DNA of 64,000 bases. Source: Pleomorphomonas sp. Lineage in GTDB: Bacteria > Pseudomonadota > Alphaproteobacteria > Rhizobiales > Pleomorphomonadaceae. A program made the position numbers and the translations under genes. How positions within the stretch are numbered: the stretch's first letter is position 1; every line of letters begins with the position of its first letter. The stretch is from NCBI GenBank assembly GCA_030603685.1, contig JAUVXG010000004.1:1-64000 (forward strand), read 5' to 3'. Positions 43,977 to 64,000 of this stretch are shown in pieces. Under the pieces are notes generated by a model, which searched no databases, had not been told where the DNA came from, and saw only the letters and a list, made by a program, of their open reading frames with translations.

Positions 43977-44111
43977 TCACGCCGACAGACGCTTGCGCCC
44001 CTGGGCCCGACGGCGGGCGATCACCTTGCGGCCACCGGCGGTGGCCATGCGCGCACGGAAGCCGTGGCGGCGCTTGCGAATGAGCTTGGACGGCTGATAA
44101 GTCCGCTTCAT
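43977..44111 (-). CDS. rpmH: 50S ribosomal protein L34
   Basis: Own translation of the reverse strand: [44 protein letters not shown]; below the ORF-track size cutoff. Confidence 0.97.
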
Positions 44112-44509
44112 GGTCGTTTGCCCGCCTGGCGGGCCCCTCGTTCTCTAGGCTCTCCGGCCTCGTCGTGTCTTGCACGACGCCTTCGGACAGCTCTTGTGTC
44201 TCAACAGGGAAATCGGCCACGGCACATGCGGCCAAGCCGGCCGAAAGACCGGTGGCGCCCTTCCGATCGGAGGGGCTTATACGGGACGGACGGAGGCTCG
44301 TCAACGCATCAATGCCAAGCAAACCGCCGCGGGACCGCCCGCTTGCCGGCGATTTCGACGGCTGCTGACAACTGCGGGCATCCCACCGCGCTAGGATATG
44401 GGCAAATATGGCGACGCGACAGAATTTTACCTTATTTCGGACGCGGGCCTCTTCCAATTTCTGCGCGAAGCGACAGATAGAGAGCATTCTTTTTTCGGAA
44501 TCTCCCAGC

Positions 44510-45955
44510 ATGGCCCAGACTGACACTTCCGGCAGCGGCACCAAGCCGCACTTCCCGACCAAGCACACATTCAGTCTGTCCTTCAAACTCCTCATCTTCA
44601 CGATCCTGTTCGTGATGTTCGCGGAAGTGCTCCTGTTCGTTCCGGCCATCGCCAACTTCCAGCGCACCTATATCGAATCGAAGATCCGGACCGCCGGAAT
44701 CGTCGCGCATACGCTGACGACCTATCCGGAGACGGCGCTGCCCCGCACCATCCAGGCCGATCTCCTCGACCGGCTCGACGCCTATGCCGTCGCCGTGCGG
44801 TCGGAGGGCATGAAGCAGCTCGTCGCCATGGCGGATACGCCGCCGACGGTCACGCGCAGCATCGACTTCGACAGTCAGCAGACGCATGGCATCGTGATGG
44901 AGGCGATGGATACCATGCTGTTCGGCGGCGATCGCACCATCCGCGTTACCGGCACCTACGACGGCGAAGGACTGGTCGAAGTGGTGTTTTCCGAAACCCA
45001 TCTCCGGGACGAGCTCTTGCATTTCGCCGGTCGGCTGCTTCTGGTGTCGTTCCTCATCTCGGCCTTCGTCGGCGTGCTGGTGTTTTTCTCCATCCAGTAC
45101 CTGATGGTCATTCCGATGCGGCGCCTGGGCAAGTCGATCTACAAATGGTCGCAGGAACCCGAGAGCGACGCCTATCTGGTGCGCTATGGCGGGCGGACGG
45201 ACGAGATCGGCCGCGCCGAGTTTGCCGCCGCCGCCATGCAGCAGCGCATCCAGGAGCTTTTCAAGCAGCAGAAGCGGCTGGTCGAGCTGGGCCTCGCCGT
45301 GTCCAAGATCAACCACGACCTGCGCAATCTGCTTGCCTCGGCCCAACTCATTTCCGACCGCCTGACGATGATCCCCGACCCATCGGTGCAGCGCTTCGCG
45401 CCCAAGCTGGTGTCGGCCATCGACAGGGCCATCAACTACTGCCAGTCGGTGCTCGCCTACGGCAAGGCGCAGGAAGCCCCCCCCTCGCGCCGGCTGCTGT
45501 CGTTATCGCGGCTTTGCACCGACGTCGCCGAGATGACCGGCCTCGTTCAGCATGCCAGCATCGAGTGGGTGAACGCGGTGCCCGAAGATCTCGAGGTGGA
45601 TGCCGACTCGGACCAGTTGTTCCGGGTGCTGCTCAACCTTGTGCGCAATGCCGCACAGGCGCTCGAACAATGCAAGGATGACGCGGTGGTTCGCCGGCTC
45701 ACGGTGTCGGCCGAGCGCGACGGCACCAAGGTCAGCATCCGGGTTTCCGATACCGGCCCGGGCCTGTCGGAGAAGGCGCGCGAATCGCTGTTCAAGCCGT
45801 TTTCCGGCTCGGTGCGCACCGGTGGCACCGGGCTTGGCCTCGCCATCGTCGCCGAGCTGGTCAGGGCCCATGGCGGTACCATCTCCTGCCTGGACGGCGG
45901 CCCGGGCGCCACGTTCGTCATCGATATCCCGGACCGGCCGGCTCTCGCCGCCTGA
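44510..45955 (+). CDS. membrane sensor histidine kinase
   Basis: Two TMs flanking a periplasmic domain, HAMP, INHDLRNLLASAQLISDRL, DTGPGLSEKARESLFKPF, GGTGLGLAIV; upstream start 44408 possible. Confidence 0.87.
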   Translation: MAQTDTSGSGTKPHFPTKHTFSLSFKLLIFTILFVMFAEVLLFVPAIANFQRTYIESKIRTAGIVAHTLTTYPETALPRTIQADLLDRLDAYAVAVRSEGMKQLVAMADTPPTVTRSIDFDSQQTHGIVMEAMDTMLFGGDRTIRVTGTYDGEGLVEVVFSETHLRDELLHFAGRLLLVSFLISAFVGVLVFFSIQYLMVIPMRRLGKSIYKWSQEPESDAYLVRYGGRTDEIGRAEFAAAAMQQRIQELFKQQKRLVELGLAVSKINHDLRNLLASAQLISDRLTMIPDPSVQRFAPKLVSAIDRAINYCQSVLAYGKAQEAPPSRRLLSLSRLCTDVAEMTGLVQHASIEWVNAVPEDLEVDADSDQLFRVLLNLVRNAAQALEQCKDDAVVRRLTVSAERDGTKVSIRVSDTGPGLSEKARESLFKPFSGSVRTGGTGLGLAIVAELVRAHGGTISCLDGGPGATFVIDIPDRPALAA

Positions 45956-45965
45956 ACATGCAAAA

Positions 45966-45992
45966 GCGGCGACGCCCTGAAAGCGCCGCCGC
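45966..45992 (-). terminator. intrinsic terminator of nagB (between convergent genes)
   Basis: Minus strand GCGGCGGCGC-TTTCAGG-GCGTCGCCGC followed by TTTT. Confidence 0.65.
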
Positions 45993-46016
45993 ACACATTG
46001 TCGTCAATGAGACGCC

Positions 46017-46763
46017 TTACTCCGCAGCCAGGCTCTCATCTGTCGCGCCGGCTCCGCTCTCCGCATCCAGCCACCAAGTGACGTTGGCATGGCCACGCAA
46101 GGCCGTTGCCGGGCAATCAGGGCCGATGGGGCCCGTAAGCGCCGCACACACCGCGTCGCGCTTGGAGGCGCCGGTGGCCAGCACGATGATTTCCCGGGAG
46201 TCGAGAATTGTGCCGATCCCCATGGTCATGGCCTTGGTGGGCGGCAGCTTTCCATCGAAGAAGGCCGAGTTGGCTTCGAGCGTCGATGCCTCGAGATCGA
46301 CGACGCGCGTGCGGGCGGCAAAGTCGGCGCCCGGCTCGTTGAAGCCGATGTGACCATTGCGGCCAATGCCGAGAAGCTGAAGATCGATGCCGCCCGCTTC
46401 GCGCATCATCGCCTCATAGCGGCTGGCAAAGGCGGCGGGATCGGCGGCAAGACCGTCGGGCACGAAGGTTCTGGTCTTGTCTATGTCGACGAGATCGAAC
46501 AGCTGGCTGTCCATCGTCGACCGATAGGAGCGCGGATCTTCCGGCGGCAAGCCGACATATTCATCCAGATTGAAGGACGTCACGCCGGCAAAGCTGATCT
46601 CGCCGGCACGATGCAGCGCGACAAGTCGCTCGTAGACCGGCTCCATGGTGGCGCCGGTGGCAAGCCCCAGCACGATTTTCGGCGTCGCCTTGAGGCGTTC
46701 GGCGATGCGGTCGGCCACGGCATGGGCCGCCGCGACGGTGGTGGGAAATTGGTTGATCGACAT
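46017..46763 (-). CDS. nagB: glucosamine-6-phosphate deaminase
   Basis: LGLATGATMEPVYERL, VTSFNLDEYVGLPPEDPRSYRSTM, LLGIGRNGHIGFNEPG. Confidence 0.95.
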   Translation of the reverse strand: MSINQFPTTVAAAHAVADRIAERLKATPKIVLGLATGATMEPVYERLVALHRAGEISFAGVTSFNLDEYVGLPPEDPRSYRSTMDSQLFDLVDIDKTRTFVPDGLAADPAAFASRYEAMMREAGGIDLQLLGIGRNGHIGFNEPGADFAARTRVVDLEASTLEANSAFFDGKLPPTKAMTMGIGTILDSREIIVLATGASKRDAVCAALTGPIGPDCPATALRGHANVTWWLDAESGAGATDESLAAE

Positions 46764-46871
46764 CTCGTACTCCATCGACCGGCCGCAGCACGGCAATCTT
46801 CATCTCTTGAGGAGATGATGGCGACGGATAATTAGTTCGTCAAGATGCCGAACATAAAATTTCGATGACAC

Positions 46872-48122
46872 TCAACCGTGGGCGGCAGACGGCAAGCGCA
46901 ACGGCATGGGCAGATCCGCCGGGCTGAACAGAAGATTGTGTGCCTGATTGAGTGCGATGGCGACGGCACCGGTCAGCGCGGCGCGGGCACCAAGCGCCGA
47001 CACCTCGACGACGATCGGCCGGCGACTGACCCGCGGCAACTCGGCCCTTATCCAGTCCACCACACCCGGCAGACAGCCGACGATGCCACCGACCACGATC
47101 TTCCTCGGCTCAAGCAACGCGTGGACCGCGACCATCGCCAGCGCCGCGGTACGAGCCAGGTCGCGGGCTGCGGTGACGGCAGCCTCGTCCTGTCCCTTCA
47201 GGGCCGCGGCAAAAATGTCGGATGGGCTCGATGTCTTTGTACCGCCGAGTGCCCGGTAGCGTTCGCGGAGGCCGCGCCTGCCAATGGTGCTTTCAAGGGC
47301 GCCGCGCTCCAGGCTGTCGGAGGCGGTCGGATCGCCACCGATCGGCAGGAAGCCGATTTCGCCGGCAGCCCCGCTGGCACCCCGGATCAGTCGCCCTCCC
47401 GTGAGCGCGCCAAGGCCGATACCCGTCCCCAACGAGACGAAGGCTACCTCGTCGACCCCAACGGCGCAGCCTGTCCAGGACTCTCCGATCACCGCCGCGT
47501 TGATGTCGTTCTCAATCACCACCGCGCATCCGAGCTCTGCGGATAGCAAGGTGCGGACATCGACGTCGCCCAGCCCCTCGAGGTTGGGCGACAGCGACAG
47601 ACGTCCACTCACCGGTTCGACGACGCCCGGCATGGCCACCGCGGCTACCAGAACCTTCTGCCTGTCGACACCGGCCTTGGCGATCAGTTCGGCAGACAGA
47701 CGCCCGAGCGCAGACACCAGCGCCGTGCCCGTGAGATCGTCGGACGGCGATTCCTCCGATGCGAGGATGTCGCCGACGATGTTGGCGAGCGACAGGCGCA
47801 GCGAGGTGACGCCGAGTTCGGCACCGATGACATAGCCGGCCGAGGGATCGACCTCATAGATGACCGCAGCGCGGCCGACCTTGCCCGACGTAACCCCCTT
47901 GATGCGGACGAACCCACCACTTTCCAGCACGCGGATCACTTCCGACATGGTCTGCTTGGAGAGGCCGGTGATCTTGGCAAGGGCAGCCCTCGAAGTGGCG
48001 CCGGAGTTGAGGAGCACATCCATGACGGCGCGCACCGAGATCTGGCGCAGCACCGGCGTTGCGGTATCGTCTGGGATCATCGGGCCGGAAGTCTCCCTGG
48101 GAGCATCACGGGATCGATCCAT
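46872..48122 (-). CDS. ROK-family transcriptional regulator (NagC/XylR-like)
   Basis: N-terminal wHTH SRAALAKITGLSKQTMSEVIRVLESGG; ROK domain VIENDINAAVIGE, SLGTGIGLGAL. Confidence 0.88.
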   Translation of the reverse strand: MDRSRDAPRETSGPMIPDDTATPVLRQISVRAVMDVLLNSGATSRAALAKITGLSKQTMSEVIRVLESGGFVRIKGVTSGKVGRAAVIYEVDPSAGYVIGAELGVTSLRLSLANIVGDILASEESPSDDLTGTALVSALGRLSAELIAKAGVDRQKVLVAAVAMPGVVEPVSGRLSLSPNLEGLGDVDVRTLLSAELGCAVVIENDINAAVIGESWTGCAVGVDEVAFVSLGTGIGLGALTGGRLIRGASGAAGEIGFLPIGGDPTASDSLERGALESTIGRRGLRERYRALGGTKTSSPSDIFAAALKGQDEAAVTAARDLARTAALAMVAVHALLEPRKIVVGGIVGCLPGVVDWIRAELPRVSRRPIVVEVSALGARAALTGAVAIALNQAHNLLFSPADLPMPLRLPSAAHG

Positions 48123-48169
48123 ACACCCAAAACCGCCGTTTCACAGCCCCGACGCGCGGTGTCGAACAC

Positions 48170-49057
48170 TTACGTCTTGGCGACGGCTCCGGCCTGCACG
48201 GAGTTTCGATACTCGGTCGGCGTGCGGCCCACCACCTTCTTGAACACCTTGTAGAAATAATTGAAGTCGTTGAAGCCGCAGCGCTGGGCGATCTGCGACA
48301 GCGGCAGATCGTATTTCTCCAGCATGAACTTGGCCTTCCCGATCCTGACCTGCGTCAGGTAATCGGAAAAGGTCATTGCACCCTGCTCCCGGAAGACGCG
48401 CGAGAAATAGTTGGGACTGATGCGCAGGTGGGCGGCAACCGTGTCCCGCGTGATCAGACGATCGAAGTTCTCCTCGATGTAGAGAGAGGCGGCGCGGAAG
48501 AAGGCCGAAGATTGCCGATCCTCCTCCGGCACGGGATTGGCAATCAGGCGTCGGGCGTATTCGAGGATCGACTGGGCCAGCAGGCGGGCGTCCAGGCTGT
48601 TTGCCCCCGCGTCGTCGCGATGGCTCGTCATGGCCTCCACCAGGTGCTGCAGAGGGCCGTTGCCGGGGATCAGGCAACTCCGTTTTTCGACCGACAGGAA
48701 GCGCCTCTCGGCGGCACTCCAGCGCACCAGGCTGACGCCGAGATGGGTGGCGCCGAAGAGGAGGCTCAGCACCTCGACGTCCTTGTCCCAGAGCGGTTGG
48801 TTCCAGCAGTTGCCCGGCACGACCAACGCCTCGCCCGGGCCGAGTTCGGTTTCCACGATCCGCGCGTTTCGGTCGCAGAGAACGTTGGTGTAGGTGCCGG
48901 CGATCACGACTTCGAAGCGGGCAAACTGCACTTGCAGCGCGCCAAGCGGCGGAGCGGCCGCGTCGAGGCCGAAGACGATGCGTTGCGGCCAACCGGTTTC
49001 GGCGGCAAGCGCATTCCCACGGGCAAAATCGTCGAGCGTCACGTTGGCATTCAACAT
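48170..49057 (-). CDS. AraC-family transcriptional regulator
   Basis: C-terminal double HTH: LRISPNYFSRVFREQGAMTFSDYLTQVRIGKAKFML...IAQRCGFNDFNYFYKVFKKVVGRTPTEYR. Confidence 0.92.
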   Translation of the reverse strand: MLNANVTLDDFARGNALAAETGWPQRIVFGLDAAAPPLGALQVQFARFEVVIAGTYTNVLCDRNARIVETELGPGEALVVPGNCWNQPLWDKDVEVLSLLFGATHLGVSLVRWSAAERRFLSVEKRSCLIPGNGPLQHLVEAMTSHRDDAGANSLDARLLAQSILEYARRLIANPVPEEDRQSSAFFRAASLYIEENFDRLITRDTVAAHLRISPNYFSRVFREQGAMTFSDYLTQVRIGKAKFMLEKYDLPLSQIAQRCGFNDFNYFYKVFKKVVGRTPTEYRNSVQAGAVAKT

Positions 49058-49109
49058 GGAGCGTCTCCTCCTTGCTTCGGGGATCGAAGAAGTGGATCGC
49101 AGAAAGAGA

Positions 49110-51656
49110 TCAAAGCCCGGGCCAGCGCCGTGCCACCATCGCCCGCACCTCGGCCGCGGAATCGAGGGTCAGCGCCTCCTCCGCCACGGCGCGGCAGGTG
49201 TCCCTGTCCAGCGTCCGGATGAAGGCCTTGAGGTCCGGGATGCCGGAACGGGTGGCCGACAGACTGGTGACGCCGAGACCGATCAGGATGGGCGCGGCCG
49301 GCAGTTCCGAAGCGAGGCCACCGCAGACGCCCACCGGGCAGTCGTGCCGCGCACCGGCCGCCGCCGTATCGGCAATCGTCTTGAGGACCGCCGGATGCAG
49401 CGAGTCGATCTCGGGGGCAAGCTCGGTGTTGCCGCGATCCATGGCCAGCACGTATTGCGTGAGGTCGTTCGTGCCGATCGAGAAGAAATCGGCCTCCTTG
49501 GCCAGCTTGTCGGCCATGGCGACGGCGGCGGGCACCTCGATCATGATGCCGAGAGGCACGTCGGCGGCAACCCCGAGCGCCGCCTTCTCCTCCTCGAAGA
49601 TCGCCTTGGCCCAGCGGAGTTCGCCGATGTCGGCGATCATCGGCATCATGATGCGGACGACCGAAACCGGCGTGACCTTGAGGATGGCGCGGAACTGCTG
49701 GCGCAAGAGATCGGGTCTCCGCTTGGAGACGCGAATGCCGCGCACGCCGAGGATCGGGTTTTCCTCGGCCGCCTGCTTGAGATAGGGCAACGGCTTGTCG
49801 CCGCCGATGTCGAGCGTGCGAATGGTCAGGGGCTTGCCGCGCAGCGCGTCGGCGATGGCCTGGTACTCGGCCTGCTGCTCGGCTTCGGTCGGCGCCGTCG
49901 GCCGGTCGAGAAACAGGAACTCCGTCCTGAGCAACCCGGAGCCCTCGGCTCCGAAAGCAAGGCCGCGTGCCGCGTCGGCCACCGATCCGACGTTGGCGTA
50001 GACGGGTACACGCGTGCCATCGGCCATCACGCAGTCGGTCGCCGCCGCCGCGCGATTGGCGGCGCGGCGTGTCTCGCGTTCGGCCGCCGCCTTGCGCGTG
50101 GCCTCGACGGTCGCTTCGGTCGGGTTCACCAGGATCTCACCGCGCTCGGCGTCGATGATGAGCGGCGCACCCTCGGCAATGCGGTGGGCGTCGGGGCCGA
50201 CGGCAGCCAGCATCGGTACGCCGCTCGCCGCCGAGAGGATGGCGACATGCGAGGTACGGCCGCCCTTGGCGACCACGAAAGCCGCCGGCAGTCGGTCGCC
50301 GAAAGCCATGAACTGCGACGGCAGGAGATCGTCGGCGATGGCGATGGCGTCCTCGGGCAGCGCGAGGCTTTCGGGCGAGCCGCCGGCCAGCACCGTCAAC
50401 ACCTGCTGCTCAAGATCGACAAGGTCGGCGGCGCGCTCGGCGAGGCGAGCGTTGTCGAGCCCGCGGAGGAGGGCCGCCTGGGCGGAAATGGTGTCGGAGA
50501 AAGCCCAGCCGGCGCTCTTGCCGCGCGCAATGCGGTCGCGGGCGCCTTCGAGCAGCTCGGTGTCCTCGAGAAGCGCCGCGTGCGCAGCCATGATTTCGCG
50601 CTGCTGCTGCGTACGGCCCGATGTCGCCTGCTCCGTGAGGTGCTGGTGGACGCGAGCGATGGCAGCGTCCAGCGCCGCGCTCTCGGCCGCCATGTCACCG
50701 CCCTCTTCGACCGGGCGGGCGACCTTCTCCTTGAGATGGACGGCGTGACCGATGGCAAGGCCGGGCGCTGCGACCACGCCGGTCAGCTGCGGACGGTCCT
50801 CAGGACCGAACGGCGTGAGATCGACGGGCGCCTCGGCGGCGGAGCCTGCCTCGTCGACGCCGGGCAGACTGTCCTGCCCCGCATCGACATAGGGCACGAC
50901 CGGATCGCCGAGGCCGGACGCGATGGCCTCGACCACACCGTCCACAGCCGCCTCGGCATCGGCGCCTTCGGCCGTGACCAGAAGGCGGCTTCCCCAGCGG
51001 CTGCCCAGCGTGAGCAGCGAAACGGGACTCTTGGCATTGGCCTTGCGCTCGCCGAGCACGACCTCGACCGCGCTCGAATACTCCTTGGCCTTGGCCGCAA
51101 GCAACGCGGCCGGGCGGGCGTGCAGCCCCTCGCTCATTTCGAGAATGACGCTCCGCTCGACACGTTCGACCGGTGGTGGAGCTTCGACGCCGATCGGCAT
51201 CACCGTCATGATCTCGTCGCTCAGGCCGACAATGCCGGCCGACTTGCGCGCCGTGACGTGAAAGGCGTCCTCATTGGTGACGAGGACGGGCGTCGTCACG
51301 ATGCCGCAGCTCTCGGCGAGCGCAGCGAGATCGAAACGGATGAGAAGATCGCCGGCCGCGACATGATCACCCTCCGCCACCATGGCCTCAAGACCGGCGC
51401 CACGCAGCGCCACGGCTTCGAGGCCGACATGCACCAGAAACTCGGCGCCTTCGTCGGTCATCACCTTCACCGCGTGGCCGCGACGATGCACGGAGGTGAC
51501 CGTGCCGGCAACCGGCGCATGCACTTCGCCGACTTCCGGCTCGATGGCGAGACCATCGCCCATCATTCCAAGCGCAAACATCGGATCGGGAACGTCGCCG
51601 AGAGGCACGATCCGGCCCTTGAGCGGAGCCCGGACGGAGATGGTGGAGGTGGTCAT
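49110..51656 (-). CDS. fused PTS protein: IIA(Glc-type)-HPr-Enzyme I (NagF-like)
   Basis: IIAGlc (PLGDVPDPMFALGMMGDGLAIEP, EFLVHVGLEAVAL), HPr (EGLHARPAA), EI (GGRTSHVAI, GSGLLRTEFLFLDR, CGGLASE). Confidence 0.92.
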   Translation of the reverse strand: MTTSTISVRAPLKGRIVPLGDVPDPMFALGMMGDGLAIEPEVGEVHAPVAGTVTSVHRRGHAVKVMTDEGAEFLVHVGLEAVALRGAGLEAMVAEGDHVAAGDLLIRFDLAALAESCGIVTTPVLVTNEDAFHVTARKSAGIVGLSDEIMTVMPIGVEAPPPVERVERSVILEMSEGLHARPAALLAAKAKEYSSAVEVVLGERKANAKSPVSLLTLGSRWGSRLLVTAEGADAEAAVDGVVEAIASGLGDPVVPYVDAGQDSLPGVDEAGSAAEAPVDLTPFGPEDRPQLTGVVAAPGLAIGHAVHLKEKVARPVEEGGDMAAESAALDAAIARVHQHLTEQATSGRTQQQREIMAAHAALLEDTELLEGARDRIARGKSAGWAFSDTISAQAALLRGLDNARLAERAADLVDLEQQVLTVLAGGSPESLALPEDAIAIADDLLPSQFMAFGDRLPAAFVVAKGGRTSHVAILSAASGVPMLAAVGPDAHRIAEGAPLIIDAERGEILVNPTEATVEATRKAAAERETRRAANRAAAATDCVMADGTRVPVYANVGSVADAARGLAFGAEGSGLLRTEFLFLDRPTAPTEAEQQAEYQAIADALRGKPLTIRTLDIGGDKPLPYLKQAAEENPILGVRGIRVSKRRPDLLRQQFRAILKVTPVSVVRIMMPMIADIGELRWAKAIFEEEKAALGVAADVPLGIMIEVPAAVAMADKLAKEADFFSIGTNDLTQYVLAMDRGNTELAPEIDSLHPAVLKTIADTAAAGARHDCPVGVCGGLASELPAAPILIGLGVTSLSATRSGIPDLKAFIRTLDRDTCRAVAEEALTLDSAAEVRAMVARRWPGL

Positions 51657-51777
51657 GCGCTTGTCTCCCAATACCTTGTGTCGAGGCAAAGCCTCCCCCT
51701 CCGCCGCCGGTTCCGGCAGCGATCGGTGATGCGAGGAGGACGAGCGCTTGCCGCGCTCCGGTCACGCCTCGTGGGAA

Positions 51778-52920
51778 CTAAATCTGGGCCGCGGCGGCGA
51801 TCTCGGCAAGAACCTCGGCGGGAAGTGCGTTGCCGGAGAAGCGATCCACCGCCGCCGCGACACCAACTTCGGTAATGGCCGCCTGCATCTCGACGGCCTG
51901 GGGATCGCCGTCGTTGCGGTAATGCAGAGCGGCGGCGATGCCCTTGACGAGGTTCGCATGCGGCAGGCCGTATTCGAGCGTACCGAGGAGCGGCCGGATG
52001 AGCCGGTCGCCCTTGCCGAGCTTTCTCAAGGGCTCTCGGCCAACGCGAGCCACGTCGTCGCGGATGAAGGGGTTGGCGAAGCGGCCGAGGATCTTCTCGA
52101 TATAGGCGGCATGCTTGGCCGGATCGAAACCGTAGCGGCGGATCAGGACGGCGCCGCTCTCTTCCATGGCGGCCTTGACGATGGCGCGAATGCCCTCGTT
52201 CTCAATGGCATCGCGAATGGTCGGCAGCCCCCTCTCGAAGCCGAGATAGGCGGTAATGGCGTGGCCTGTGTTGAGCGTGAACAGCTTGCGCTCGACGAAG
52301 GCCATCAGATTGTCGGTCAGCTCCATGCCGGGAATGTCGTGCGTCCAGCCCTTGAGCTGCCCACGGTCCACGATCCACTCGGAAAACTCCTCGACGGTCA
52401 CGGCGAGCGGTTCGCCCTCGACCGGCGGAGCAGGCGGCACGATGCGATCGACGGCGCTATCGGCGAAACCGACCTCGATCTCGACCACGGCGGCGATAGC
52501 CGCCGGCAGGTGACCGAAAATCGCCTCCTTGAGCTGTGTGGTGCCGCGAATGGTGTTTTCGCAGGCGATGATGTTGAGCGGCGCATGCTTGCCGGCCGCA
52601 ACGCGAGCCTCGAGACCGCGAGCGATCGTCGGCGCAATCTTCGGCAGCACCGCAGGCCCAACGGCGGTGGTAACGAGATCGGCTGAAGCAATGAGGTCGA
52701 CGATATCGTCGCCGATCGACGAAACGGCGCTGACGCCGGTCACTTCCTCGCGGCGGCTGCCGTTGCCCACGATGTCGACCGGATAGCGTCCATCCCTGGC
52801 AATCTGGCCGACCAGTGTTTCGTTGACGTCGGCGAAGGTGACTGCCCATCCGGCATCAGCGAGGATCTTGCCGATGAAACCGCGGCCGATGTTGCCCGCG
52901 CCGAAGTGAATGGCTCGCAT
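51778..52920 (-). CDS. mtlD: mannitol-1-phosphate 5-dehydrogenase
   Basis: [60 protein letters not shown]. Confidence 0.96.
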
Positions 52921-52988
52921 GGTCGTCTCCAAAGCTTGTCTTGGGAGGGGGCTGCCCTCAGGCAGCCCCCGGTTCTCAGAAGCCGAGG

Positions 52989-54911
52989 TCAGCCGAGATC
53001 GAGGATGCGCAGCACGTCGGCCGGGTTCTTCGTCGTCGCAAGGTGGGCGACCACCTTGGGATTCTCGAGAACCCTGGCCAGGGCCGACATGACATCCATG
53101 TGCTCGTTGCCCTTGGCCGCGAGGCCGACGACGAGACGAGCCACATTCTCGGGTTCGGGACCGAAGAACACGCCGTCGGGATACTGGCAGACGACGATGC
53201 CGGTCTTCAGAACCTCGTTCTTCGCTTCGTTGGTGCCGTGTGGCATGGCCAGCGACTGGCCGAGATAGGACGACACGATGGTCTCGCGCTGGAGCATGGC
53301 GTCGATGTAGCTCGGGGTGATCGCGCCCATCTCCAGAAGCTTGGAGCCGGCGAAGCGAATGGCTTCCTCTTTGGTGGACGCGGTGAGGCCGAGGAAGATA
53401 TTTTCCTCACCGAGATTAAAAGATGCGCCACCCTCGGGCTTGCCGGCGGCCGGAGCCGCGGCGGAACCCGCCTTCGCCTTGATTTCAGCGACGATGCGGT
53501 CATAGGCCGCGCCGTCGAGGAAGTTGGTGATGGAGATGTGCGTCGCCTGGGGAGCAGCCCGGCGGGCACGCTCGGTCAGGTCCTTGTGGGTGATGACGAC
53601 ATCCACATCGGCCGGCAGGGCGTTGATGGCGACGTTGCTCGACCGGACGGCACCAAGGCCTGCCTGGTCCAGCTTCTTGCGCAGCATGGAGGCGCCCATG
53701 GCGGACGAGCCCATGCCGGCGTCGCAGGCGACGATGACCGAACGGACCGGACCGGAGATGGCAGCCGACGAGGCGGCAGCCGGAGCAGCCATGCCCTTCG
53801 ATTCAGCCTTCAGGGCCTTCATGCGAGCGGTGGCGGCATCGATGTCCTCTGAGGCTTCCTCCGTCCTGTCCGTCTTGAGCAGAACCGAGGCAACCAGGAA
53901 GGTCACGACGGCACCGAGTACCACGGCGGAGATGACACCGACAAAACCATCGGCCGGGGTCATGCCGAGCACGGCGAAGATCGAACCGGGCGACGACGGA
54001 GCGCGCAGACCGCCGCCGAGCATCATGTTGGCCGCCACACCGGTGGCGCCACCGGCGATCATGGCGATGATCAGGCGCGGCTTCATCAGCACGTAGGGGA
54101 AGTAGATCTCATGGATACCGCCGAAGAAGTGGATGATGGCGGCACCAGGAGCCGATTCCTTCGCGTTGCCACGGCCGAAGACCATGTAGGCAAGCAACAG
54201 GCCGAGGCCCGGGCCCGGATTGGCTTCGATCAGGAAGATCAGCGACTTGCCCTGTTCGGCGGCCTGCTGGATACCGAGCGGCGTGAAGACGCCGTGGTTG
54301 ATGGCGTTGTTGAGGAACAGCACCTTGGCCGGCTCGACCAGGATCGAGGCCAGCGGGATGAGACCGGCGTTGATCAGGGCGTTGACGCCCGCGCCGAGGG
54401 CCGCCGACAGGTTCTCGACGATCGGACCGACGATCGCGAAGGCGATCATGGCCAGGATCATGCCAAGGATACCGGCCGAGAAGTTGTTGACCAGCATCTC
54501 GAAGCCGGGGCGGATCTTGCCATCCACCATCCGGTCGAACTGCTTGATCGACCAGCCGCCGAACGGACCCACCAGCATGGCGCCGAGGAACATCGGAATG
54601 TCGGTACCGACGATGACGCCCGCGGTGACGATGGCACCGACGACGGCGCCGCGCTCACCATAGACCAGCTTGCCGCCAGTGTAGCCCAAAAGGAGCGGCA
54701 ACAAGTAGGTGATCATCGGGCCGACGAGCTTGGCGAAAAACTCGTTGGGCAACCAGCCGGTCGGGATGAAGAGAGTGGTAATGATACCCCAGGCGATGAA
54801 AGCGCCGATGTTGGGCATCACCATGCTGCTCAGGAAGCGGCCCACTTGCTGGACGCGCACCTTGAGGTTGGACGACGACCCGTCGCCCCCTGCGGTTCCG
54901 GTATATGCCAT
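52989..54911 (-). CDS. mtlA: PTS mannitol transporter subunit IICBA
   Basis: IIC ([49 protein letters not shown]), IIB ([21 protein letters not shown]), IIA ([17 protein letters not shown]). Confidence 0.96.
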
Positions 54912-55187
54912 GTCTTGGAAACTCCTCCACGAAGTCCTGTCACGCCCCGAAGGGAAACCGACAGACCGAAGGACAAACGATCTCACCGCCGCAATCGAGT
55001 TGCGTCGAAGAAATACCGGCCCTCGGAATGAGCCAGTCATGTCGTTTATCTCGAAAGCCTCTCCGCTCCCTCCATCCCAGCCCCGTCTTCCACGGTCCAG
55101 GAGATACGAAAACACCGCCCCGAACGCCTGACGACGTTCGGACTCCAGCACACTTGAATAATTGTTCTTACGGGTCCTCGTTCGATT

Positions 55188-55208
55188 GTGATGAAAACAT
55201 GACATCAC
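55188..55208. promoter_or_regulatory. inverted repeat upstream of mtlA, candidate operator
   Basis: GTGATG-AAAACATGA-CATCAC in an AT-rich stretch of the long mtlA leader. Confidence 0.45.
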
Positions 55209-55354
55209 TATGAGTTAAAGTGGAAAGATATAAACACGACTGTAAAAATGTATCCTACGGTGACGCGACATTGCGTCGGCCTCCGTTCACCGCAGCGAAA
55301 AGTCTATGAAAACCATTGATTTGGGATGATATCCGCAACTTGAAAATTGTATGA

Positions 55355-55369
55355 TTGAGCCCAGCTCAA
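55355..55369. promoter_or_regulatory. palindrome between mtlA and glmS, candidate operator
   Basis: TTGAGC-CCA-GCTCAA perfect 6-bp arms in AT-rich intergenic DNA. Confidence 0.4.
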
Positions 55370-55435
55370 AACCATACTTAAGTCGACATACGGAGCACTC
55401 CGGCTCCCCGGCTTATACCTTTTGCCCATGGAAAA

Positions 55436-55469
55436 GCGGCGCGCCGACCCAGAAAGACCGGCGCGCCGC
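55436..55469 (-). terminator. intrinsic terminator of glmS
   Basis: GCGGCGCGCCG-N12-CGGCGCGCCGC perfect 11-bp stem; minus strand followed by TTTT. Confidence 0.85.
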
Positions 55470-55502
55470 CTTTGTTTCAACCGGAATCAACCGGCTTGGC
55501 AC

Positions 55503-57326
<1,824 letters not shown>

Positions 57327-57487
57327 TGACGAACTAACCCATTGTTGTCCCGGAGGCGGATCTATCAAGCGAAACTCGCCCTGACGACCGCGCCTTTCAT
57401 GGGAGGCGACCGTGTCACGCCGAATAACTGGCGACAAGTCAACAATAGTTGCCAAATTTTACAGAATTCTTGCCAGCCGTCCCGAAA

Positions 57488-57811
57488 TCACGACCTGGGC
57501 AACGCCAAGGCTTCGGCCAGAACCGCTTCGGGATCGGCGATGGCCCGCGCAGTACCGACTGTAAGCACCGGCACGCTCTGGAAGCGGTCGAGCCCCTCGA
57601 TGTTGACATCGGCTGCAATGATGGCGGCGTGAGCGCGACTGATGTCCTTGCGCGTCAGGACATCCTCGCTGCCAAGGGCGCCCTGGGTTTCGACCTTGAT
57701 CAGGTAGCCGAGCCGCTGGGCAGCGGCCAGCAGGCGCGTGGCGGCCATGTAGGTGAGCGCAACACCGGTCGGGCAGGCTGTGACGACGACGATCCGGGTG
57801 CCGTTCTCCAT
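57488..57811 (-). CDS. stand-alone PTS fructose-type EIIB
   Basis: MENGTRIVVVTACPTGVALTYMAATRLLAAAQRLGYLIKVETQGALG; catalytic ACPTG motif retained; no IIA/IIC domain. Confidence 0.88.
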   Translation of the reverse strand: MENGTRIVVVTACPTGVALTYMAATRLLAAAQRLGYLIKVETQGALGSEDVLTRKDISRAHAAIIAADVNIEGLDRFQSVPVLTVGTARAIADPEAVLAEALALPRS

Positions 57812-57982
57812 GTCGCCTCCCTTCCCTGCCGCCTGCGAGTATCCCGCGAAACGCGCACTACCATTTCAGACCGCTCTGATACTTCAAATGCGCCAAAGCT
57901 GCAAACGGGAGGAAAGAGGACACTCCTCAGAAAGGTCGACCCAAGGCTTCTGCCCAGCCGTCATCGAGAAGGATCGAAGAAT

Positions 57983-58011
57983 GCCCCAGGGCATCAAAGA
58001 TGCCCCGGGGG
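57983..58011 (-). terminator. hairpin downstream of the ABC ATPase gene
   Basis: CCCC(A)GGGCATC-AAA-GATGCCCCGGGG stem-loop just 3' of the ORF; U tract weak. Confidence 0.5.
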
Positions 58012-58019
58012 AATGCACT

Positions 58020-59045
<1,026 letters not shown>

Positions 59046-59055
59046 GAACTGATCC

Positions 59056-60684
59056 TCACGCGCCGAGATCGCGGTAGCGGAAATAGGAGAAGTCGGCCGG
59101 CATGGCCTGGCCACTCAGGTCGTTGGCCGACATCCCGACGAAAGCGCCGGTGAAGTTGGAGTGCTCGCCCGCTCCGCACTCATCCGAAAGTAGCGAGGCA
59201 TCGAGCACGCCTCCGACCTGCGTCCAGTCGTCCGAGCCCACGGCATAGAAGAAGACCAGGGCTGTCGTCCGGACTTCAGCCTTGAGCCGCACCGGCACGC
59301 CGCCGGGTACGGGAACAGGCTTGGCGAGCCCCATCGTGGTCTGCCCTCCCCCTTGCGTGCCGGTGCAGGAGATGACCTGCAGGCAGGTGCCGACCTCCTG
59401 ATCGAAGGTCAATGCCAGGTAATGGTAGGCAAAGCGATTGTAGTAGGCCACGAGCCCCGCCATCTGCATGTGGAGCTTCGGATCGGCATGAACCTCGGTT
59501 TCCGCGTCGTAGGAGAACGACGTCTGCCGACGTGCGACCAGCGCCTGCTCATACCAGGACCCCATGGCCTCGCGTCCGTGGAGACGCAGGAAACCGGGAC
59601 GTTCCTCAAGCGAGAACAGGCGCTCGCCAAAGGGCGTGCGCAACCACTGAAAGTCCTTCGGCAGGCCAGCGTCGGCCGAGAAGCGATACTCCTCCGGCGC
59701 GGGGGCGAACGGGTAAGCCGGCACGTCGGGCGCTTCGACTTCCAACTTTGGCGTCAGTTTGCCGCCCGCGATGCGAGGCCAGCCATCGGCGCCCCACTCG
59801 ATCTTCTGGATAGCGGTTTCCCGCCCCAGAGGGCAGCGGCGCAAGCCCGGAATCGGGCGGCCGGTCAGATGGACGAGATAGGTCTCGCCCGTTGGCGTGT
59901 CGACAAAGTCGGCGTGACCGGCACGCTGAAGCGGCGCGTTCGGATTGCCGCGTGACGTGACCACGTAGGTGTCGGGATGCAGCTCATACGGCCCATTGAG
60001 CGCGCGGGAGCGCCCTACCGTGGCGACATGGTTATAGCCGGTGCCGCCCTCGGCAACCATGATGTAGTACCAGCCATCGCGCCGGTAGAGATGAGGGCCT
60101 TCCGTCAGGCCGGCCTCGGTGCCCTTGAAGATGTTGGTGATCGGCCCCTTCAGCTTGCGCTCGGCGACATCGTACTCTTGGCAGGCGATGCCGGCGAAGC
60201 TGTTGTCTCCCGGAAAGCGCGGCGGACGGCCACGATAATCCCACCACACGTTGACCAGCCACTTGCGACCGTCGTCGTCGTGGAACAGCGACGGATCGAA
60301 GCCCGAGGAGTTGAGGTAGATCGGATCCGACCAGGGCCCTTCGATGGACGGGGCGGTCACGAGATAGTTGTGCACGTCCTTGACCGAGCCGTCGCGGCGC
60401 TTCATGTCGCTGAAAATCAGCCAGAACATGCCATCGGCATAGGTCAGACAGGGCGCCCAGACGCCGCAACTGTCCATCTCGCCGCGCATGTCGAGCTGAC
60501 TGGCACGATCGAGCGGTCGGCAGACCAGATCCCAGTGCACGAGGTCGCGGGAGTGGTGAATCTGCACCCCGGGGAACCACTCGAAGGTGGAGGTGGCGAT
60601 GTAGTAGTCGTCGCCGGCGCGGCAGATCGACGGATCGGGGTTGAACCCCTTGAGGATCGGATTTGTGATGACAGGACGGGACAT
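59056..60684 (-). CDS. glycoside hydrolase family 43 (beta-xylosidase-like), no signal peptide
   Basis: [45 protein letters not shown]-terminal GH43 beta-sandwich domain. Confidence 0.92.
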
Positions 60685-60687
60685 GGT

Positions 60688-61518
60688 TCAACCCTTGACC
60701 GAGCCGCGCGTGAGGCCGGCCACGATGTATTTCTGTGTGAAGGTGAAGAAGATGAGCGCCGGCAGGATCGTCAGCGACACGAAGGCGAGAATGCGGTTCC
60801 ATTCCACGATGAACTCGCCGCGGAACTGCATGATGCCGAGCGGCCACGTGAACAGGGACTGTTCGTTGAGCACGACCAGCGGCAGCAAGTAGTTGTTCCA
60901 GCTCTGGACGAAGACGAAGGTACCGACCGTGGCAAGGATGGGCGTCGACAAAGGCAGCGTGAACCGGAAGAAGAAGCCCACGTAGCCGCACCCGTCGACA
61001 TAGGCCGCCTCGAACAGCTCCTTGGGCAACTGCTGGAAGAAACTCCGCAGCAGCACCACGGCGAAAGCCATGGAGAAGGCCGTCTGAGGCAGGATGATGC
61101 CGAGCGGGTTGTCGAGCAGGCCAAAGCGGTTGATCTGGAAGAACAGCGGCACGATGGCGGTGGCGAAGGGGAACATCATCCCCAGCAGCATGTAGGACTG
61201 CAGATAGCGCGACCCGAAGAAGCGGATCTGCGCGAAGACATAGGCTGCCATGGATGCGCAGAGCACCGTCAGAACGACCGCCGACAACGAGATGATCAGC
61301 GAGTTGCGCAGGTAGGTCCAGAATGCCGAGCCCGTCAGAATATCGACGAAGACGGTGAAGCTCCATTCGGAGGGGATGCCGAAGGGCGCGGCCCTGAGCT
61401 CGCCCAGCGTTTTGAAGCCACCGAGAAAGGTGGCCAACAGAGGCAGGATGACCAGCGCGGCTACGAAAGACAGGAAGGCCGCGCGCATCAGCTGCGGGAA
61501 GAGTTTTGTGCGCTTCAC
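60688..61518 (-). CDS. carbohydrate ABC transporter permease (MalG-like)
   Basis: EAAYVDGCGYVGFFFRFTLPLSTPIL EAA loop; GTG start overlapping upstream permease stop. Confidence 0.9.
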   Translation of the reverse strand: MKRTKLFPQLMRAAFLSFVAALVILPLLATFLGGFKTLGELRAAPFGIPSEWSFTVFVDILTGSAFWTYLRNSLIISLSAVVLTVLCASMAAYVFAQIRFFGSRYLQSYMLLGMMFPFATAIVPLFFQINRFGLLDNPLGIILPQTAFSMAFAVVLLRSFFQQLPKELFEAAYVDGCGYVGFFFRFTLPLSTPILATVGTFVFVQSWNNYLLPLVVLNEQSLFTWPLGIMQFRGEFIVEWNRILAFVSLTILPALIFFTFTQKYIVAGLTRGSVKG

Positions 61519-62453
61519 AGCTGCCCTCCCTTGTCGATCGCCATGCGCTTGTAGGTGAAGGCCGTGCCGACGCAGAGGGCAAACAGCACCACGCCGACGG
61601 CGGCGCCGAAGCCGACGTTCATGCGGGCGAGGCCGAAGGTGTAGAGGAAGCTGACGATCGAGTGCGTCGAGTTCGACGGGCCGCCGTTGGTCAGCGGAAT
61701 GATGATGTCGAAGACCTGAAGGGCGCCGGTGATGGCAAACAGCACGCTGAGCTTGACGGCATGCATGATCATGGGCAGCTTGACGTACCAGATGGTCTTC
61801 AGCGAACTGGCGCCATCGATCTCCGCCGCCTCGACGAGGTCCGACGGCACCGCCTGCAAGGCGGCGATGAAGATCATCATGTGATAGCCGAAGTACTTCC
61901 ACACCACCACGATGATGATGGTCCAGAAGGCCCACTGCTTGTCCGCGAGGATGTAGAAGGGCTCGGTCCCGAGCTTGTTGGCGACCATTGCCGAAATGCC
62001 GTAGTCGCCGTCGAAAATGAAGCTCCAGATCAGGCCGGTGGCGATCTCGGCCAGAATGTAGGGCGCAAAGAAGATCAACCGGAAGGCTGTGTTGGCTGAC
62101 GTCTTGCGGTAGAGGAGCAAGGCCAGCACCAGAGCCAGCGGAATCTGCAGGAAGATCGATGCCAGCAGCAGCTTGAGCGAGTTGAACAGCGACTGGTGGA
62201 AGATGGAGTTCTTCACCAGGATCTCGTAGTTCCGCAAGCCGACGAAGTTGGTGACGTCGCCGTAGCCGTTCCACTTGTAGAAGCTGAGATCCATGGCGCT
62301 GAAGATCGGCCAGATCACGAACAGGGTGAACAGGAGCACGGCCGGAGGCAGGAACAGGATCAGGGCGGTGAGGCTGCCATCCGTACGCATGCGGGCAAAG
62401 CCGCTCGGCCGCCGACGCGCGGCAGGAGGCCTCGCTTGTGTTGTGAGGGTCAT
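61515..62453 (-). CDS. carbohydrate ABC transporter permease (MalF-like)
   Basis: EAAEIDGASSLKTIWYVKLPMI EAA loop. Confidence 0.9.
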   Translation of the reverse strand: MTLTTQARPPAARRRPSGFARMRTDGSLTALILFLPPAVLLFTLFVIWPIFSAMDLSFYKWNGYGDVTNFVGLRNYEILVKNSIFHQSLFNSLKLLLASIFLQIPLALVLALLLYRKTSANTAFRLIFFAPYILAEIATGLIWSFIFDGDYGISAMVANKLGTEPFYILADKQWAFWTIIIVVVWKYFGYHMMIFIAALQAVPSDLVEAAEIDGASSLKTIWYVKLPMIMHAVKLSVLFAITGALQVFDIIIPLTNGGPSNSTHSIVSFLYTFGLARMNVGFGAAVGVVLFALCVGTAFTYKRMAIDKGGQL

Positions 62454-62616
62454 GGAACAGGTCTCTTGGTAGGCAGCCTGCTAAGACAGGGAGAGGCGAC
62501 CGTCGATGCCGGGGGAGCGGGGAGCCACACACGGCTGCCGGCCCGACAGGAACAGTCGGCGCCGTTCCGGATGGCTGGCGAGCGCCGCCACCCGGAATGA
62601 GCTTTTCCAGCGCCGG

Positions 62617-63873
62617 TCAGCGCATCTCGTTCGCTTCTTCGACCATTTGCGCCGCTTCCTCGGGCGAGATGTCGCCGGTGGCAAGCTGCGCCGAAGCATC
62701 GTTCATTGCCGCGCCGACATTGGCGCCAAGCTCCTGGTCGAGATAGAGCTGATGGTGCGGGGCCGCAGCGAGCAGGTTGGCGATCGCCTTGATGTTGGCG
62801 TTCTTGATGCCGGCGTCCGCGCCCTTCACGATCGGCAGCCAGAGGTCCATGCTTGCGCTGGTGGTCTGATTGTCGAGGTCCATCAGGCTCTCGAGGAACT
62901 TGGCCGCCGCCGGCGTGGCGTTCTTGGAGACCAGCCAACCGTTGATGCCGCCGAAGGTGTCCGCCGGATCGCCCTTGCCCCCCTCGACGACCGGGAAGGG
63001 GATGAAGCCGAGGTTCTCGTCGCTGATCCCCGTGCCAGACGTGGAGTTGCGCTTCTGCGCACCGATCATGTAGTTGCCCGACAGGATGAAGGCGCCGCGT
63101 CCGTCGCCAAACAGGCCGCCGGCCTTGGAGTTGTCGGTATCCATGAAACCGGGCTGGAAGGGCTGCAGATCTGCCAGCCTCTTGAACTCTTCGCCCGCCT
63201 TGACGAAGTCCGGCCCGGCAAGACCATCGTTTTCACCCGCGGCTGCGGCGGCGATGCCGTCGGTGCCGGCAATCCGCGTGGCAAGGTAGCCATAATAGTG
63301 CTGGAGAGGCCACTTGGACTTGCCCCCAACCACGATCGGCGTAATCCCGGCCTCCTTGACCGTCTTCACCGCGGCGAGGAAATCGTCCCACGTCTTGATG
63401 GACTTGGGATCGACGCCGGCTTTGTCGGTCAGTTCCTTGTTGTAGAACAGCACGACAACCCCAGCGTACATGGGCAAGCCATAGAGCTTGTCCTGGTAGG
63501 TCAGCGCCTTGATGCCGCCCGGCGCAAAGGTGTCGAGCGCCTTTGGATCCACATCGCCCGAGATGTCCCTGAGAACGCCCGCATCGGCCTGCTCGTGAAA
63601 AACACCGCCGGTCCAGGTGAAGAAGATATCCGGTCGGGCATCCGATTGAAGCAGCGTGGGCAGCTTGGACTTGAAAGAGGTGTCGTCGAGATAGTCGAAC
63701 TGGATTTTGATATCCGGATTGGCCTTCTCGAACTTCTCGATCGCCGCAGCGTAAAAATCACGCCCTTCCTTGACATTAGGCTCGATTGAAAGAACTTTTA
63801 CGGTCTCGGCGAAAGCTGGGAACGAGGCGAGCACCGTCGCTGCAAGCACAGCGATTGTGGCGTACTTTTTCAT
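62617..63873 (-). CDS. carbohydrate ABC transporter substrate-binding protein
   Basis: Signal peptide MKKYATIAVLAATVLASFPAFA; FEKANPDIKIQFDYLDD...LLQSDARPDIFFTWTGG. Confidence 0.92.
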   Translation of the reverse strand: MKKYATIAVLAATVLASFPAFAETVKVLSIEPNVKEGRDFYAAAIEKFEKANPDIKIQFDYLDDTSFKSKLPTLLQSDARPDIFFTWTGGVFHEQADAGVLRDISGDVDPKALDTFAPGGIKALTYQDKLYGLPMYAGVVVLFYNKELTDKAGVDPKSIKTWDDFLAAVKTVKEAGITPIVVGGKSKWPLQHYYGYLATRIAGTDGIAAAAAGENDGLAGPDFVKAGEEFKRLADLQPFQPGFMDTDNSKAGGLFGDGRGAFILSGNYMIGAQKRNSTSGTGISDENLGFIPFPVVEGGKGDPADTFGGINGWLVSKNATPAAAKFLESLMDLDNQTTSASMDLWLPIVKGADAGIKNANIKAIANLLAAAPHHQLYLDQELGANVGAAMNDASAQLATGDISPEEAAQMVEEANEMR

Positions 63874-63975
63874 AATTCTCCTCCCTTTTTCCATGCCCGC
63901 AGCATTCAAGTGGCAATACATTGACTTCCATACCAACCACTTCGATGCGAGCCGAATGGGAGGACACTAGTTGAG

Positions 63976-63991
63976 CCGATTTGAAAATCGG
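63976..63991. promoter_or_regulatory. palindrome upstream of the xyloside ABC operon, candidate operator
   Basis: CCGATTT-GA-AAATCGG, 7-bp perfect arms about 100 bp upstream of the substrate-binding protein start. Confidence 0.45.
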
Positions 63992-64000
63992 GATTATGTT

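Follow-up and report, generated by a model that had tools for sequence, protein, structure and literature searches.

We analysed a window of 64,000 nucleotides from Pleomorphomonas sp. (contig JAUVXG010000004.1, positions 1 to 64,000), in which a small gene, here called iib (57488–57811, minus strand), stands at the head of a block of mannitol and amino-sugar genes. It starts with ATG, encodes a stand-alone PTS protein of the fructose IIB type (IIB-Fru) of 107 amino acids, and is separated by 161 nt from glmS, which comes next downstream on that strand. glmS (55503–57326; 607 amino acids) is the sole full-length glmS of the genome and is not of the family's own type. It is followed on the minus strand by mtlA, for a mannitol PTS IICBA protein (52989–54911), mtlD, for mannitol-1-phosphate 5-dehydrogenase (51778–52932), a fusion of IIA-Glc, HPr and EI (49110–51689), an AraC-type regulator (48170–49057), a ROK-type (NagC/Mlc-like) regulator (46872–48122) and nagB, for glucosamine-6-phosphate deaminase (46017–46796). 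A sequence-only reading of the window had found no IIA or IIC partner for iib; this holds for a dedicated fructose partner, but MtlA, encoded directly after glmS, has both domains, and its IIA domain falls in PF00359, the Pfam family of IIA-Fru. Four IIA-2 domains and four EIIC proteins are encoded in the genome of the window, where no cognate fructose-type IIC lacking its own IIB was found.

The TIGR00829 (IIB-Fru) profile matches nearly the whole length of iib with 90.9 bits against a cut-off of 76.85, as does PF02302 with 66.3 bits against a gathering threshold of 23.6. Sequence relatives in the PDB also support IIB-Fru membership, and the predicted fold (pLDDT 89.6) resembles the IIB-Fru structures 2r48, 5dle and 2m1z at TM scores of 0.87–0.90, the best, 0.90, being to 2r48 and 5dle. 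The open reading frame, the profiles and the fold together bear out the initial description of a stand-alone IIB-Fru of 107 residues, co-directional with glmS across a 161-nt gap. With a mean dN/dS of 0.067 over 55 pairs (0.036 for glmS), iib is under purifying selection at about 0.07 and is therefore not a chance open reading frame.

Orthologues of iib (89–98%) are present in ten other genomes of the genus (G001–G006, G009 and G011–G013), giving 11 with that of the window (G000). In all 11, glmS and then mtlA come after iib, and mtlD and the EI fusion are found wherever the contig is long enough. The pairing of iib with glmS, to which the sequence-only reading had drawn attention, thus recurs in 11 Pleomorphomonas genomes, the window included, and also in L068, a MAG contig labelled Rhodospirillales, which has the same gene order (IIB 61%, glmS 83%, mtlA 66%, mtlD 74%) and ends after IIB–glmS–mtlA–mtlD. 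The linkage in L068 probably reflects one inheritance or transfer event and not an independent origin. No further iib orthologue was found in samples of 398 genomes of the order, 385 of the class, 399 of the phylum and 82 of other orders; a scan of genome contigs likewise returned orthologues from Pleomorphomonas and L068 only, together with two Firmicutes stand-alone IIBs in which the His discussed below is kept. As far as seen, the block is confined to one genus and one MAG. Because it is one linked block in one clade, the association of IIB with mtlA is not independent evidence.

Conservation begins about 100 nt before iib, and the left edge of the conserved block is a promoter-like element (57872–57906, minus strand), recognized by its conservation in 11 aligned Pleomorphomonas sequences; the DNA farther upstream varies between species. 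It holds ABC/GH43 genes in the window's own genome and in G005, G006 and G013, fruBKA in G012, and various other genes in the remaining genomes. The gap between iib and glmS measures 154–161 nt across the 11 genomes and 117 nt in L068; a search of the gap found no terminator. It contains a conserved element (57409–57466, minus strand) that is also recognizable upstream of glmS in G008, a congener without iib, and glmS can therefore be expressed without iib. Because glmS has this conserved upstream element of its own, kept in G008, co-transcription with iib is not implied. Just before the glmS ATG, positions 57327–57340 (TTAGTTCGTCA) are identical in the 11 aligned genomes and contain no obvious Shine–Dalgarno sequence. 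The 591-nt gap between glmS and mtlA includes a 39-nt block (55217–55255, minus strand), identical in 11 aligned sequences, that is possibly an operator or leader. Further invariant blocks flank it, and the 39-nt stretch is partly recognizable in L068. No known RNA element was found with Rfam at gathering scores in positions 44000–64000, the 39-nt block included.

The glmS gene itself (55503–57326) is closer to those of other orders of Alphaproteobacteria and of L068 than to those of its own family (59–61%). In the glmS tree, the type found in this genus clusters with the sequences of L068 and G008, and the family type stands separately; one row (L052_G009) was in the wrong frame and was disregarded, the glmS there being 95.6% identical. 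Because the genus glmS groups in this way, away from the family type, the tree suggests that the native glmS was replaced by transfer.

The phospho-Cys loop of iib, CPTGVALT (residues 13–20; 57752–57775, minus strand), has Leu19 where the family has His. Cys13 in the CPTG loop is invariant in all 12 aligned iib sequences (11 Pleomorphomonas genomes and L068), and so is the leucine, a substitution that had been noticed from the single sequence and that holds throughout the clade. We compared iib with 142 distinct relatives collected by similarity to it, 92 of which have Cys plus His. Leaving aside the first domains of FruA, all 92 of the other Cys-type IIBs have His19 (Cys+6), against Leu in 12 of 12 members of the iib clade; among the 142, Cys plus Leu is confined to that clade (n = 12). 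Cys plus Thr or Asn occurs in 13 of the 142, every one the first domain of a FruA-like open reading frame, and these N-terminal FruA domains (IIB′) are the only other sampled Cys-bearing domains without His19. The acidic Glu25 (Cys+12), present in 84 of the 92 His-type IIBs, is replaced by Thr or Asn in the iib clade and is missing also from the FruA-like first domains, which keep Cys. Loss of Gly79 and Lys80 is limited to the iib clade. IIB classes other than Fru are not known to have a His at the position of His19.

iib thus does not have the His at Cys+6 and the acidic residue at Cys+12 by which we judged a catalytic transporter IIB-Fru, and its earlier description as apparently active is doubtful, since both have been lost. 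Phosphotransfer could still work, because ETQG, Asp68, Arg76 and Phe77 are kept. In a short tree (100 columns; family sample of relatives found by similarity to iib), the iib clade forms one monophyletic branch (SH-aLRT 96.9) amid fructose-like IIBs, both stand-alone and multidomain, and does not fall among the FruA domains. A fragment of FruA is ruled out by this separate placement, and iib is a free 107-residue open reading frame, not the N-terminal part of a FruA polypeptide.

Genomes that lack one or other part of the block serve as natural controls. G007 carries a glmS of the family type (59%) and neither IIB nor mtlA; G008 has the glmS type of the window (86%), again with IIB and mtlA absent together, so that this glmS type is not always accompanied by the candidate regulator. 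In G010, mtlA reaches the contig end and both glmS and IIB are unassembled, which makes the missing IIB an assembly gap. The near-complete genomes G002 and G005 keep IIB and have no FruA-type IIB or IIC. The FruA of the window's genome, on contig C167, carries its own IIB and therefore needs no external one; FruB (IIA-HPr-EI) adjoins it, and a kinase-like open reading frame beside it is read as FruK. A FruA lacking its IIB, which iib would complement, and a failure of the iib–glmS pair to recur in other genomes had been named as findings that would overturn a regulatory reading. Neither was found: the pair recurs, and iib is ruled out as the missing IIB of FruA, both because FruA is complete and because iib persists in G002 and G005 without it.

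An ordinary role as an active extra or backup phosphocarrier for FruA or MtlA is, in our estimate, rather unlikely. The Cys loop and most family residues are retained, IIA-2 donors are present in the genome, and in G012 iib lies directly behind fruBKA; but FruA and MtlA each have their own IIB, the protein is retained where FruA is absent, and His19 and Glu25 are gone. The same two losses and the absence of a cognate IIC could mean that iib is a relic in decay, or a hitch-hiker, from a fructose-like PTS which arrived with the glmS–mtl block, and has little function. We regard this as very unlikely in view of the low dN/dS, the constant length, the upstream element conserved in 11 aligned sequences and the invariant Cys13. 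The genome also encodes, on contig C277 (L200:2260–4536), a PTS EIIC of the lactose/cellobiose type fused to an EAL (c-di-GMP phosphodiesterase) domain, an orphan with orthologues (67–96%) in all other IIB-positive genomes and in G010 and none in G007, G008 and G014–G019; no IIB of its own class was found in the window's genome. iib might be the cytoplasmic partner of this EIIC–EAL protein in a split, PTS-linked c-di-GMP switch, given that the fusion has no IIB of its own, that the genome search gave no other stand-alone PTS_IIB, and that it occurs in 11 of 11 IIB-positive genomes and is absent from G007 and G008. Its IIC is, however, of the lactose/cellobiose family and not fructose, the two genes are unlinked, and their co-occurrence follows one clade; we think such a switch highly improbable.

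The sequence-only reading had proposed a PTS phospho-relay sensor acting on GlmS or on the synthesis of cell-wall precursors. In the GlmS form of this idea, iib would bind and control GlmS directly, with PTS flux setting IIB phosphorylation and, through it, GlmS activity. GlmS is a possible direct target, and adjacency at a near-constant spacing, the replacement of the family's own glmS by a foreign type, the presence of the pair in L068 and the precedent of EIIA-Ntr acting on GlmS in Salmonella (PMC5024086) are consistent with it. Against this, G008 carries this glmS type but no IIB, glmS keeps its own upstream element there, the linkage of IIB to mtlA, of the mannitol PTS, is as firm as that to glmS, and a phospho-sensor would fail if loss of the His prevents phosphorylation. 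We consider direct control of GlmS unlikely, if plausible.

The best explanation, which we put at about an even chance, is that iib has no part in transport and is an IIB-Fru with a regulatory or adaptor role, devoted to the mannitol/amino-sugar PTS locus at whose head it stands. Such a dedicated role is probable because two otherwise nearly universal residues near the active site have been replaced, yet the gene is kept beside glmS and the mannitol genes in 11 genomes; the conserved block with variable upstream neighbours, the dN/dS of 0.067, retention without FruA and the joint absence of IIB and mtlA from G007 and G008 all support it. What we say of its function we infer. As a regulator or adaptor, iib would dock onto IIA-2-type domains (that of MtlA, perhaps those of FruB or PtsN), Cys13 would be phosphorylated slowly or not at all, and PTS state would be relayed by protein contact and not by passing phosphate to sugar. 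The likeliest partner would be the mannitol permease/EI chain, and the second candidate GlmS, a competitor for the fructose-6-phosphate that mannitol yields. More specifically, and doubtfully, free iib, without catalytic phosphotransfer residues, may be a soluble signalling adaptor that couples mannitol-PTS flux to GlmS, so that mannitol-derived fructose-6-phosphate sets cell-wall amino-sugar synthesis.

If IIB-type PTS proteins can be free regulators, regulation by the PTS, so far described mainly for IIA proteins, would extend further than thought. Genomes with IIB, without it and without FruA also make the locus a simple natural test of whether, in Alphaproteobacteria, the state of sugar uptake determines the synthesis of cell-wall precursors. 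A literature search gave nothing relevant on an orphan EIIB with GlmS, but the earlier suggestion that such a system had not been described does not stand in general, as a PTS protein is already known to control GlmS directly: in Salmonella, EIIA-Ntr inhibits GlmS and its binding is phosphorylation-dependent (PMC5024086). If GlmS is a target of iib, the two systems would be alike in that a PTS protein acts at the step of glucosamine-6-phosphate synthase (PMC5024086). EIIA-Ntr belongs to the IIA proteins, takes its phosphate on His and has its gene with rpoN, whereas iib belongs to the IIB proteins, has a Cys site and is the neighbour of glmS.

Closer in form are the stand-alone fructose-like IIBs of E. 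coli (PDB 2kyr and 4tn5) and Listeria (Lmo0427, PDB 2m1z), which iib resembles in size, Cys loop and ETQG, and in predicted fold with TM scores of 0.84–0.87. The His-type stand-alone IIBs of the family sample keep the His, whereas iib has His changed to Leu and Glu to Thr or Asn; and iib is linked to glmS–mtlA in place of a fructose-like IIC. In its active site, iib can be compared with the E. coli-type IIB′ of FruA, in which Cys is kept and His and Glu are lost at the same two positions. In E. coli this duplicated domain reportedly makes contacts between proteins and does not transfer phosphoryl groups, and two proteins of the fructose PTS, FruA and FruB, bind to MtlA there and influence its activity (PMC6872149). 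Because IIB′ parallels the loss of both residues, an interaction role for iib is suggested, not shown. IIB′ is fused within FruA, whereas iib is free, keeps ETQG-G and Asp68, and groups with other IIBs.
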